Below are positions 34,714 through 37,816 of a stretch of DNA of 64,000 nucleotides, one piece after another. The position numbers were made by a program, and so were the translations under genes. This DNA is from Myxococcus xanthus (lineage in GTDB: Bacteria; Myxococcota; Myxococcia; Myxococcales; Myxococcaceae). Numbering within the stretch: position 1 is the stretch's first letter; every line of letters starts with the position of its first letter. The notes below the pieces were generated by a model. That model worked only from the letters and a program-made list of their open reading frames with translations. It was not told where the DNA came from and did no database searches. The DNA lies in NCBI RefSeq assembly GCF_006402735.1, contig NZ_CP017174.1, positions 5,707,001-5,771,000 of the forward strand, given 5' to 3'.

Positions 34714-35163
34714 TCAGCCCTGCGCCAGCACGCGGACAAGGACGTCAATCATGGTGGCCCAGCCCTGCTCCGTCCGGCTCGCGTAGTCGGCCCACTTCGC
34801 GTCCATCTCGTGGGTGAGCGTCAGCTCACAGCCGGTGTCGCGCGGTGTGATTTCCACCGTCACCCGGCTGAGCTCGTCCTCCTCCTTGTCGATGTGCCAG
34901 GTGAAGACGAGCCGGCGCGGCCGGTCAATCTCCAGGTACGTGCCCACATGGTCGATTTCTTCTCCGGCCCGCCGCACGAAGAACGAGAACTTGCCGCCCA
35001 CGCGCGGGTCGATGGCGAGCCGCAGCACCTCCTCGTCCCGGACCGTCGGCCCGGTCATCCACTGGCCGACCATCTCCGGCTTGAGCCAGGCGTCGAACAC
35101 CCGCTCAGGCGACGCGTTGAAACGCCGTGTGACGCGAACCTGGACGCTCTGTGCTGAGGACAT
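34714..35163 (-). CDS. START/AHSA1-family protein (SRPBCC fold)
   Basis: 149 residues from ATG 35163, with GGAAAAG just before it. The single domain is of the AHSA1 (Aha1 C-terminal-like) type: VTRRFNASPERVFDAWLKPE, then RVGGKFSF, YLEIDRPRRLVFTWH, TVEITPRDTGCELTLTHEM and a final helix GWATMIDVLVRVL. These small proteins bind hydrophobic ligands in a cavity and are usually encoded beside an ArsR-type repressor. Here no ArsR gene is adjacent, although two palindromes of that style sit in the promoter. Ligand unknown. Confidence 0.88.
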   Translation of the reverse strand: MSSAQSVQVRVTRRFNASPERVFDAWLKPEMVGQWMTGPTVRDEEVLRLAIDPRVGGKFSFFVRRAGEEIDHVGTYLEIDRPRRLVFTWHIDKEEDELSRVTVEITPRDTGCELTLTHEMDAKWADYASRTEQGWATMIDVLVRVLAQG

Positions 35164-35201
35164 GGCTTTTCCTTTCAATCCGAGGGTTGGCGCCTTTGAT
35201 A

Positions 35202-35254
35202 AACCACATGGTTCAACATACTCCCGGCCGTGGCAATGAACAACCACTTGGTTG
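35202..35254 (-). promoter_or_regulatory. Promoter flanked by two AACCA-n2-TGGTT operators
   Basis: AACCACTTGGTT (35242-35253, within CAACCACTTGGTTG) and AACCACATGGTT (35202-35213) are perfect palindromes apart from the 2-base centre, exactly 40 bp apart. Between them on the minus strand are TTGTTC (35243-35238) and TATGTT (35220-35215) with a 17-base spacer, a plausible -35/-10 pair. One operator overlaps the -35 box and the other lies at the start site, so a dimeric repressor (ArsR type) could block the START-domain gene. A role in the divergent gene at 35302 is possible. Confidence 0.6.
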
Positions 35255-35301: not shown

Positions 35302-36372
35302 ATGCCTCAGCGCCCCACCGTGGCGGAAGTGGAATCCATTCTCCGCGCGCCAGTCCGCCAGAACTGGGAGCAGTTCACCAAGACGCTCAAGACGCTGCCA
35401 GCGGATGTCGACCCCGACCTTGCGTCACAAGCTGCGTTGAGCCTCATTCACGGGCAGCCCGCGTCCCACTGGTTATTCGGGCGTACCTGCCAGCAGCTCC
35501 CTGCCCCTGTCATCCGCGCGCTCCTGGGTCGGCTCGAAGCCGACTCCCGGCCCCACGCCTACTTCCTACGCGAAGCGGTCCCCCAAGAAGCCTCCGACGA
35601 AGAGCTCCGAACGACATGGAAGGCAGCACTCCAGGGCTTGCTCGACCTGGAGACGACCTATGCGTGGGGCTCGAAGCAGCGCAAAGCAAAGTTCCAGGCG
35701 CTGGCGAACACCCCATCCTTGCTCCAAGCCATCCAGACCGCTGTCGTGGCCTGTGAGCAGGTGTCGGTGGACATGCTGGCCGTGCTGACGGTGGATGCGT
35801 CGGACTCCTCGGTCGATGCGCTCATTCCCCATGTGGAGCGGGCCGTGCAGAGCCAGGGCTGGGAGTTGGACCGTCTGGAGGACTTGCGCAAGCACGCGCG
35901 CTCCACCCCCGTGATGGACGACATGTTCGCGCGAATGGAGGCCCTGCTCCAGGGACGTCGCGCGCGCTCGCCCGCGCTCGACCTGGCCCGGCACCTGGGC
36001 TTCGGTGAACTAGATGCCATCTGGTTCAGAACCTACCTTCTTGCTGGGGACACCCATGCGACGAACCCCCTCGCGCATCAGTGCAACATCAACGTGGATA
36101 GCCGCACCCCTCGCTGGTTCAGTGTCTGGCAGACATCCCGAATGGATGGCCTCGACAGAAACGCCTGGAGCGACACCCACTTCGACAACGAAAAGCTGCA
36201 CAAAGACATCCGGGGACTTGGCGCATGCGAGTTGATGCAACTTCCTGATTGGGTTGCGCGCACGGCCAAGCGCCTCGGCGCAGCGTGGAACATCAGCGAC
36301 AGCGCGTTGTTTACGAACCTTCGCGGGAAGAAACGCGCAAGACTCGCGGAGTGGCTTCGCTCGGGCACATGA
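35302..36372 (+). CDS. Unrecognised soluble protein
   Basis: 356 residues, no signal peptide or membrane segments. I do not recognise the family. The first 230 residues are mostly helical and HEAT- or TPR-like in composition (VAEVESILRAP, then LSLIHGQPASHWLFG and a run of Leu-rich helices). The last 120 residues are more basic with many aromatic residues (PRWFSVWQTSRMDGLDRNAW) and differ in codon use, with more AT-ending codons than neighbours, which may point to transfer. The start is divergent from the START-domain gene, 138 bp away, and the stop converges on the MFS gene. Possible roles such as an immunity or accessory factor are guesses. Confidence 0.6.
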   Translation: MPQRPTVAEVESILRAPVRQNWEQFTKTLKTLPADVDPDLASQAALSLIHGQPASHWLFGRTCQQLPAPVIRALLGRLEADSRPHAYFLREAVPQEASDEELRTTWKAALQGLLDLETTYAWGSKQRKAKFQALANTPSLLQAIQTAVVACEQVSVDMLAVLTVDASDSSVDALIPHVERAVQSQGWELDRLEDLRKHARSTPVMDDMFARMEALLQGRRARSPALDLARHLGFGELDAIWFRTYLLAGDTHATNPLAHQCNINVDSRTPRWFSVWQTSRMDGLDRNAWSDTHFDNEKLHKDIRGLGACELMQLPDWVARTAKRLGAAWNISDSALFTNLRGKKRARLAEWLRSGT

Positions 36373-36382
36373 GCCGCCCGGC

Positions 36383-37816
36383 TCACCCCACCCTGCGGCC
36401 CCCGATGTGCGCCCCGGCATTGGGCGACAACCGGCGATAGAGCGGTCCGGCCAGCGACGACATGATGCCCACCGCGATGAACGGCAGCACGAAGCGGTCC
36501 GGCGTCAACGGCGCCTCGCCAGCGCCGCGCGCCAGGTGCAGCATCAACCCGCCGAAGCTGATGCCCAGCCCCAGCGCCATCTGCATCGTCACCACGGACA
36601 ACGTGGACGCGTTGCTCACCGTGTCCGGGGGAATGTCCGCATACGCCACGGTATTGATCGCGGTGAACTGCATCGAGCGCATGAATCCGCTGACCACGAG
36701 CACGCCAACGATGAGCGGAATCGGCGTGCTGTTCCGGAAAAAGGCCGGCAGCGCGGTCAGGACGGCGGACGCCAGGTTGGCGAAGATGAGCGTTTGCCGG
36801 AAGCCGAACCGCCGGATGATGTAGGGCGCCACCGACTTGCATGCGAGCGCGCCCACGCCGCCGCCGATGGTCACCAGCCCGGCCTCGACGGGCGTCCAGC
36901 CCAAGCCGACCTGGAACAGCAGCGGCAGGAGGAAGGGCGTCGCCCCCAGGCCCATGCGCGTCAGGGTTCCGCCAATCATGCTGGCCCGGAAGGTGTCGAT
37001 GCGCAGCAACCGGAGATTCAATACGGGCCGCTCCACGCGCAGCGCGTGCCACACGTAGGCCCCCAGCGACGAGAACGCGACGGCCGCGAGCCCCAGTTGC
37101 AACGGCAGCGGCATCAGCCCGATGCCCACCGTCTCCGCCGCGCCAATCAGCGTGGTGATGGCGACGGCCGCGAGCACGAAACCCCGCGTGTCGAACGGCC
37201 CCGGGTCCGGCTGGTGCAGCGGCGGAACGAAGCGCGCCACCGCGAGCATGCCCAGGATGCCCACGGGCACGTTGATGAAGAAAATCCACGGCCAGTCCGC
37301 GACGCCCAGGATGAGGCCCGCCAACGGAGGCCCCACCAGCGGGCCCACCAGCGCGGGCATCGTGAACCAGCTCAAGGCGGCCACCAGGCGCTCTCGCGGC
37401 GCCGAACTCACCACGATGATGCGCCCCACGGGCGTCATCAACGCGCCGCCCAGCCCCTGGAGGGTGCGGAAGATGACCAACTGGGTCAGCGACTGTGAGA
37501 ACCCGCAGAGCACCGAGCCCAGCAAGAACACGCTCATCGCGAACATGAAGACGCGACGGGGCCCGAAACGGTCCGCCACCCAGCCGCTCGCGGGCGCGAG
37601 CACCGCCAGCGCCAGGATATAGGACGTCAGCGCCAGCTTCAGGTGGATGGGGTCGGTGTCGAACGCCAGCGACAGCCGAGGCAACGCGGTGGACAGAGCG
37701 GTGGAGTCCACGAACTCCATGAACAGCGCGCTGGCCACCGCAATCGAGGCCAGTCGCGAGCCCCGGGGAGAATCTCCACCTGCGCCGGTGCTGCTGGGAA
37801 CCGGATGCTCAGGCAC
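36383..37816 (-). CDS. MFS multidrug-type transporter (DHA2/EmrB-QacA)
   Basis: 477 residues with 14 predicted membrane segments, the layout of the DHA2 family. Seen are FVDSTALSTALPRLS in segment 1, motif A GWVADRFGPRRVF and the motif-C-like PALVGPLVGPPLAGLIL. Start is GTG 37816, just 3 bases after the rfbC stop, so it may be read from the rhamnose operon; its own ribosome site is poor. These transporters use the proton gradient to expel hydrophobic drugs. Its place at the end of the dTDP-rhamnose genes may be chance or may mark export of a rhamnosylated product. Substrate unknown. Confidence 0.85.
   Translation of the reverse strand: MPEHPVPSSTGAGGDSPRGSRLASIAVASALFMEFVDSTALSTALPRLSLAFDTDPIHLKLALTSYILALAVLAPASGWVADRFGPRRVFMFAMSVFLLGSVLCGFSQSLTQLVIFRTLQGLGGALMTPVGRIIVVSSAPRERLVAALSWFTMPALVGPLVGPPLAGLILGVADWPWIFFINVPVGILGMLAVARFVPPLHQPDPGPFDTRGFVLAAVAITTLIGAAETVGIGLMPLPLQLGLAAVAFSSLGAYVWHALRVERPVLNLRLLRIDTFRASMIGGTLTRMGLGATPFLLPLLFQVGLGWTPVEAGLVTIGGGVGALACKSVAPYIIRRFGFRQTLIFANLASAVLTALPAFFRNSTPIPLIVGVLVVSGFMRSMQFTAINTVAYADIPPDTVSNASTLSVVTMQMALGLGISFGGLMLHLARGAGEAPLTPDRFVLPFIAVGIMSSLAGPLYRRLSPNAGAHIGGRRVG

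Follow-up and report, generated by a model that had tools for sequence, protein, structure and literature searches.

Genes for START/AHSA1 proteins often stand next to a gene for an ArsR-type regulator, an association stated in the initial annotation of the window (the whole 64,000-nucleotide stretch of DNA analysed here) and borne out by the excerpted text of Makarova et al. (2009; PMC2701414). One such gene in the window, which we call START-A, has two operator-like palindromes at its promoter and no regulator gene beside it. This raises the question of which protein, if any, recognises these sites, and in particular whether the repressor is encoded elsewhere in the genome or was lost, the two possibilities left standing by the initial annotation.

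Two palindromes across the START-A promoter

The features of the locus, in coordinates of the window and with the kind of evidence on which each rests, are as follows.

35242..35253, no strand: distal candidate operator AACCACTTGGTT (minus strand AACCAAGTGGTT); sequence, conservation, and a position as in the 43 listed arsR promoters
35202..35213, no strand: proximal candidate operator AACCACATGGTT (minus strand AACCATGTGGTT); sequence and conservation
35238..35243, minus strand: inferred -35 hexamer TTGTTC; sequence and homology of position
35215..35220, minus strand: inferred -10 hexamer TATGTT; sequence and homology of position
35170..35176, minus strand: Shine-Dalgarno-like GAAAGGA ahead of the START-A ATG; sequence
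34714..35163, minus strand: START-A gene, 149 aa, an AHSA1/START (SRPBCC) protein without its arsR; Pfam match and orthologues
35302..36372, plus strand: divergent ORF of 356 aa, a neighbour thought not to belong; ORF call, Pfam search and relatives
36383..37816, minus strand: MFS transporter gene, upstream neighbour on the START-A strand; Pfam match and relatives

START-A matches PF08327 with an E value of 8.1e-28 (97.6 bits against a cut-off of 22.1), and its start codon is the ATG at 35163 on the minus strand. The two AACCA-n2-TGGTT palindromes are exact, lie where they had been reported and start 40 bp apart, and the 17-bp spacing given for the -35 and -10 hexamers is also correct. On the minus strand the promoter reads AACCAAGTGG[TTGTTC]-17 bp-[TATGTT]G-AACCATGTGGTT, followed by 38 nt to the ATG. 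The sites had been described as flanking this promoter, which holds insofar as they lie on either side of the hexamers, but they do not merely flank it: the distal site overlaps the inferred -35, with the last TT of AACCAAGTGGTT opening the hexamer TTGTTC (35243-35238), and the proximal site begins one base past the inferred -10 and extends over the inferred transcription start. Both hexamers are weak, with three of six consensus bases at the -35 and four of six at the -10, and a strict sigma-70 consensus scan did not find them; we therefore assign the promoter by its positional homology with the arsR promoters described below.

As had been noted, no repressor gene adjoins START-A; its neighbours are a DUF4185 protein, the divergent ORF and the MFS transporter, and the Pfam search identified no ArsR among them. 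The MFS gene lies beside START-A in seven of the eight genomes with a close START-A, and in G015 both genes are at contig ends. The divergent ORF has no Pfam or NCBIfam match; its homologues occur in 18 of the 27 genomes of the genus, mostly elsewhere in the genome, and it stands beside START-A only in the genome of the window (G000) and in G001, G006, G017 and G018, with a remnant by the MFS gene in G023.

Comparisons across the genome and among relatives, both proposed in the initial annotation, speak for the palindromes. Exact AACCAnnTGGTT occurs at three places in G000 (9,316,447 bp, one contig), two of them at START-A, and the reversed pattern at none; three exact places in 9.3 Mb, two of them 40 bp apart, are far beyond chance. 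The third exact place sits within a long open frame and was rejected as a regulon member. A looser pattern with at most one mismatch gives 60 strand matches in G000, nearly all elsewhere, against 14 for the reversed control. When each place was inspected by frame composition, most near sites fell within frames of coding-like composition, and the promoters of START-A, of a second START gene (START-B) and of a lone arsR, both described below, stood out. The near sites at 8546529, 8420418, 4021238 and 3832170 are among those without clear coding composition. One of these, at G000:C1:8546529-8546544 (L289), is an AT-rich palindrome, TTAATCATTTGGTTAA, between two divergent ORFs; it contains the ATG of the minus-strand ORF and is possibly another leaderless, ArsR-like control region.

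START-A homologues at an E value of 1e-15 or better are present in 15 of the 27 genomes, its own included, and comprise eight close ones (seven intact and 86-100% identical, and one, in G017, with a broken frame) and seven at 59-65% identity. In an alignment of the eight close promoters, that of START-A in G000 among them, all eight have an exact proximal site and four an exact distal one; the distal site has one mismatch in G015, G017, G018 and G021. All 10 specified positions of the proximal site and 8 of the 10 in the distal site are invariant; the corresponding counts outside the sites are 10 of 28 columns between them, 9 of 60 upstream and 10 of 38 downstream.

The promoter layout of arsR-START pairs

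Relatives that keep the repressor gene, whose comparison had also been proposed, do exist. In 7 of the 27 genomes arsR directly precedes the START-A homologue (59-65% identity) and a second START gene follows; in G007, G008, G013 and G014 the same arsR has only the second START type behind it, and in G002, G009 and G020 a related arsR is followed by a gene of the second START type. In all 14 genomes of the genus with arsR-START, AACCnnnnGGTT straddles the arsR start codon just past a -10-like hexamer. A different ArsR paralogue, 53-54% identical to P0003 (the ArsR of the paired genome G005), is found in G021, G001 and G023 (L072, L073 and L074), where tandem AACCA-n2-TGGTT-like sites lie immediately ahead of its start codon; it has no match in G000 at an E value of 1e-15.

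A scan of public genomes for AACCAnnTGGTT-N(14-44)-AACCAnnTGGTT returned a sample of at least 119 double-site stretches, in which ArsR and START genes were detected with profiles built from sequences of the genus (seeds including P0003 and L027) and counted as linked when they lay within 600 bp downstream of the double site. Among the matches listed, 50 stretches have a spacing of 38-41 bp (9, 14, 18 and 9 stretches at 38, 39, 40 and 41 bp, respectively), and these comprise 40 with arsR and START, 3 with arsR only, 3 with START only and 4 with neither. Among the matches listed at other spacings, both genes are linked in 24 of 35 stretches at 36 bp or less (neither in the other 11) and in 4 of 28 at 43 bp or more (arsR only in 4, neither in 20), and the six stretches at 37 and 42 bp include one with arsR and five with neither. 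As a control, 1486 random points in the same stretches gave no case of both genes, 1 arsR, 6 START and 1479 with neither.

To describe the layout we compared 43 arsR promoters, namely the 44 linked ArsRs at 37-41 bp among the matches listed minus L097, which belongs to another ArsR type. In these listed promoters the distal site extends into the -35, and the proximal site lies after the -10. The distal site continues as TTGA in 43 of 43 and as TTGAC in 39; the -10 hexamer ends in T in 42 and has A as its second base in 37; and by hand count the proximal site reads AACCA(T/C)ATGGTT in 41, the exceptions being L160 and L191. The ATG within this proximal sequence is, by eye, in frame with ArsR in L107, L203, L186 and the genus's own arsR. 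Among the matches listed, the layout is seen in records of Alphaproteobacteria, Bacillota, Planctomycetota, Acidobacteriota and Actinomycetota, as well as in this genus. START-A has the same arrangement, which was derived here and not taken from a publication: its distal site is on the -35, its proximal site follows the -10, and its inferred -35 occupies the place of TTGACA in arsR-START promoters. These comparisons support AACCAnnTGGTT double sites as a putative type of ArsR operator.

The distance between the sites equals 23 bp plus the promoter spacer, such that 38-41 bp corresponds to spacers of 15-18 bp. The initial annotation had noted that the 40 bp at START-A, by placing both sites on nearly the same helix face, would suit cooperative binding, an argument that we do not retain as the main cause of the spacing: 40 bp is about 3.8 turns, the family spans 38-41 bp, and no helix-face argument is needed because the spacing follows the promoter spacer (23 bp + 15-18 bp).

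Several stretches of the public scan depart from the usual gene content. In three stretches from other bacteria the double site precedes a START gene and no intact arsR was seen: L205 has no arsR ahead of the START gene, in which the stretch ends, the arsR of L200 has an in-frame stop, and L206 showed no intact arsR frame. L130, L147 and L152 have double AACCA-n2-TGGTT sites, spaced 41, 42 and 40 bp, near genes that read as TetR-like from their sequence, and in L147 and L152 an ORF that reads as membrane-protein-like starts inside the proximal site.

The lone arsR and a second START operon

Matches to HTH_20 mark 21 ArsR-like loci in G000, 14 of them over the cut-off and about 9 of those 14 ArsR-like by eye. 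One of the loci is a lone arsR at G000:C1:7805614-7805988 on the minus strand, 2.06 Mb from START-A, whose product matches winged-helix ArsR domains (HTH_20, E = 3.8e-12; HTH_5, E = 4.3e-10). In a profile of the 44 operator-linked ArsRs among the matches listed, this gene scores 163 bits and the next of the 21 candidates 118; in a profile of 24 ArsRs with sites spaced at 36 bp or less, also among the matches listed, it ranks fourth with 96 bits. The lone ArsR is 66% identical to P0003 over 107 residues. The gene occurs in 9 of the 27 genomes, and in all nine there is no START gene within about 1.5 kb of it. Its neighbours in G000, labelled from their sequence, are an apparent trypsin-like protease upstream and a delta-60-like repeat protein. 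The end of the lone arsR is overlapped by a glyoxalase-family ORF, which G017 has in intact form (L059, G017:C1:806904 onward) and of which G000 and G021 have only remnants (L066 and L056), those in G000 lying downstream of the gene.

The promoter of the lone arsR has its own palindromes, TTTAACTGGGTGGTTTAA and, 39 bp on, TCACCCCCATGGTTCA, each one mismatch from TnAACCnnnTGGTTnA, the second lying over the start codon in alignment with the paired arsRs. Within about 1.5 kb, TnAACCnnnTGGTTnA with at most one mismatch is found twice at the lone arsR and at none of the other 20 ArsR-like loci of G000. The palindrome AACTGGGTGGTT of the lone arsR departs from AACCAnnTGGTT at two positions, and the strict site pattern does not detect it. 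Among the relatives, G006 and G024 retain the first palindrome with additional changes, and the second has degraded in G017 and in G024. Purifying selection acts on START-A and on the lone ArsR alike, with dN well below dS; between G000 and G024, START-A has a dN of 0.062 and a dS of 0.58, and the ArsR a dN of 0.079 and a dS of 0.56.

A second START locus resembles the first. At 0.790 Mb, a pair of near sites 42 bp apart (G000:C1:789663-789720) precedes START-B (P0006; G000:C1:789737 onward; PF08327, E = 5e-11), and START-C (PF08327, E = 5.2e-17) lies behind it in an operon region spanning G000:C1:789663-790900 (L082, L295). START-C is 53-54% identical to the second START of paired operons in L048b and L045b and 48% identical to that in L060b. 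The START-B promoter in G000 reads CACCATTCGG[TTGACA]-19 bp-[AATATT]C-AACCAATTGGATGAATAT, its sites having two and one mismatches. In all nine genomes with START-B the proximal AACCAAyTGGATGAAT is kept, as is GGTTGACA in the distal site, whose left arm is variable (G017, G021, G024). No ArsR was found around START-B within 1.5 kb on each side, a distance that is shorter at the contig end of G015.

START-B, absent from 18 of the 27 genomes, is present in precisely those 9 that carry the lone arsR. These include G017, where START-A is broken, and G023, which has no START-A match, the gene having been lost from the MFS locus; because START-B is present in both, the lone arsR has a reason to persist there. 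The nine genomes look like one clade, hence the co-occurrence may reflect few events. A pattern that captures the layout, GGTTGN{18,26}ATNTTNAACCNNNTGG, matches 17 places in the 27 genomes (7 arsR promoters, 5 START-A, 4 START-B and 1 other, in G004:C12) and its reversed control none, and in G000 it finds exactly START-A and START-B. The pattern was drawn from these same promoters, so its value lies in the near absence of other matches, and it misses START-A of G001, G017 and G021.

The history of these genes can be read in part from the ArsR tree. ArsRs at least 60% identical to P0003 occur once each in 23 of the 27 genomes and never two together. In this tree the lone ArsRs cluster with the proteins of G002 and G009 (99/92) and of G020 (95/90); the 11 ArsRs of the other type fall outside this clade. 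The ArsRs with which the lone ones group are paired with another START type, not with START-A homologues. Because of this grouping, the original partner of START-A may be lost and the lone ArsR may be a stand-in. Two histories fit: a single ancestral module may have undergone different rearrangements from lineage to lineage, or START-A may have lost its own arsR and come under the lone one. An MTAP gene (labelled by eye) adjoins arsR in the paired genomes; in G000 about 194 kb separate it from the lone arsR, hence the neighbourhood is silent on which piece moved; the MTAP tree, in which the G023 row is wrongly delimited, leaves the deep order of the genus open.

A probable split module, its alternatives and known systems

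The question posed at the outset is best answered by "elsewhere": a lone arsR of the right subfamily lies at 7.806 Mb, though the tree also leaves room for a loss of START-A's own repressor followed by a stand-in. We give a probability of roughly 70% to the reading in which the palindromes are operators of a START-associated ArsR and the arsR-START module has been split, the lone arsR most likely acting in trans. An ArsR dimer on the distal site would cover the -35, a dimer on the proximal site would cover the sequence just past the -10, and the two together would exclude RNA polymerase from the START-A promoter. START-A would descend from an arsR-START operon in which the adjacent arsR was lost and the promoter and operators were kept, and the repressor would most likely be the trans-acting product of the lone arsR, a gene with related but weaker palindromes in its promoter. 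START-B and START-C are probably under the control of this ArsR as well, and its release would be brought about by a ligand, probably not a metal, of the kind bound by START proteins. In this reading the sites, their conservation, the family-wide layout, the lone arsR, the second operon and the co-occurrence are observed, and binding, repression and the ligand are inferred. We lean slightly towards a wider proposal, that in this clade the lone ArsR has become a small trans-acting hub for scattered START loci, two at the least (START-A and START-B/C), which arose from dismantled arsR-START operons with the double-operator promoter kept.

If the cognate repressor had instead been lost altogether, START-A would be expressed without that control and its operators would be relics. 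This is consistent with the lone ArsR not being the closest match to the ArsRs that accompany START-A homologues, and with the loss or decay of arsR beside such operators elsewhere (L200, L206, L205). However, relics would be expected to decay alike, whereas the proximal site is exact in eight of eight promoters while its surroundings drift, and a well-fitting ArsR persists under purifying selection; we regard such a loss as improbable. The sites might also be bound by another ArsR of G000 (e.g. G000:C1:4892192, 118 bits) or by a TetR-type regulator. Candidates exist, as 14 HTH_20 matches in G000 pass the cut-off and about 9 of these look ArsR-like by eye, and in other phyla some double sites are followed by genes labelled TetR-like from sequence (L130, L147, L152), but the lone arsR alone of the 21 ArsR-like loci has related palindromes within about 1.5 kb and it leads by 45 bits in the profile of operator-linked ArsRs, which leaves a different regulator with little probability. 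Least likely is that the sites serve the divergent ORF at 35302, instead of or besides START-A. Its orientation and a start 48 bp from the distal site would suit such a role, but G015, G021 and G024 keep both sites (the distal one with one mismatch in G015 and G021) without the ORF, and the layout in arsR promoters points the other way; as a target the ORF is unlikely.

Two-gene ArsR-START modules are widespread in Bacteria and have been little characterised; the START-A locus offers a candidate operator and promoter layout for them. A natural split pair with conserved operators would allow repressor, target and ligand to be tested apart, and the promoter signature may help to search for members of the module that stand alone, in any genome if the wider proposal is true. 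Among the open-access papers listed we found none on AACCAnnTGGTT as the operator of an ArsR-START pair; within the excerpted text of PMC11009283, the letters of AACCAnnTGGTT appear in primers only.

Three known systems invite comparison. The metal-sensing ArsR/SmtB family (NCBIfam NF033788) takes in the lone ArsR by score (68.2 bits against a cut-off of 55), as does Pfam HTH_5, yet the protein has a single cysteine in its 124 aa and no metal-resistance-like neighbour, judged by labels read from sequence, in the surrounding 3 kb; a metal-sensing role appears unlikely. In Mycobacterium tuberculosis, according to the excerpted text of PMC3338718, the ArsR protein Rv2034 represses its own promoter through a palindrome, precedes the polyketide-cyclase/START gene Rv2035 in one operon and also acts on distant promoters in trans. 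The excerpt gives that palindrome as CCGTAAGT-N4-ACTTACGG, not AACCAnnTGGTT, and describes one footprinted palindrome with arsR beside START, whereas in G000 the site is double and the arsR stands apart.

The third is the ArsR-COG3832 (ArsR-AHSA1/START) two-gene module of Makarova et al. (2009). In the excerpted text of PMC2701414, Table 2 lists COG3832 as a neighbour of ArsR 280 times and ArsR as a neighbour of COG3832 259 times, the ArsR subfamily of these pairs is without metal-binding motifs, and a role in antibiotic resistance or of a toxin-antitoxin-like kind is proposed for the pair. The protein families are the same, the relatives of G000 hold exactly that pair, and the sites in G000 match those before such pairs. 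However, that excerpt describes a stable two-gene combination and contains no operator sequence, whereas in G000 the regulator and the START genes are apart. The pair itself is thus known, and what appears to be new is an ArsR-START module probably disassembled within a genome with its putative operators kept.
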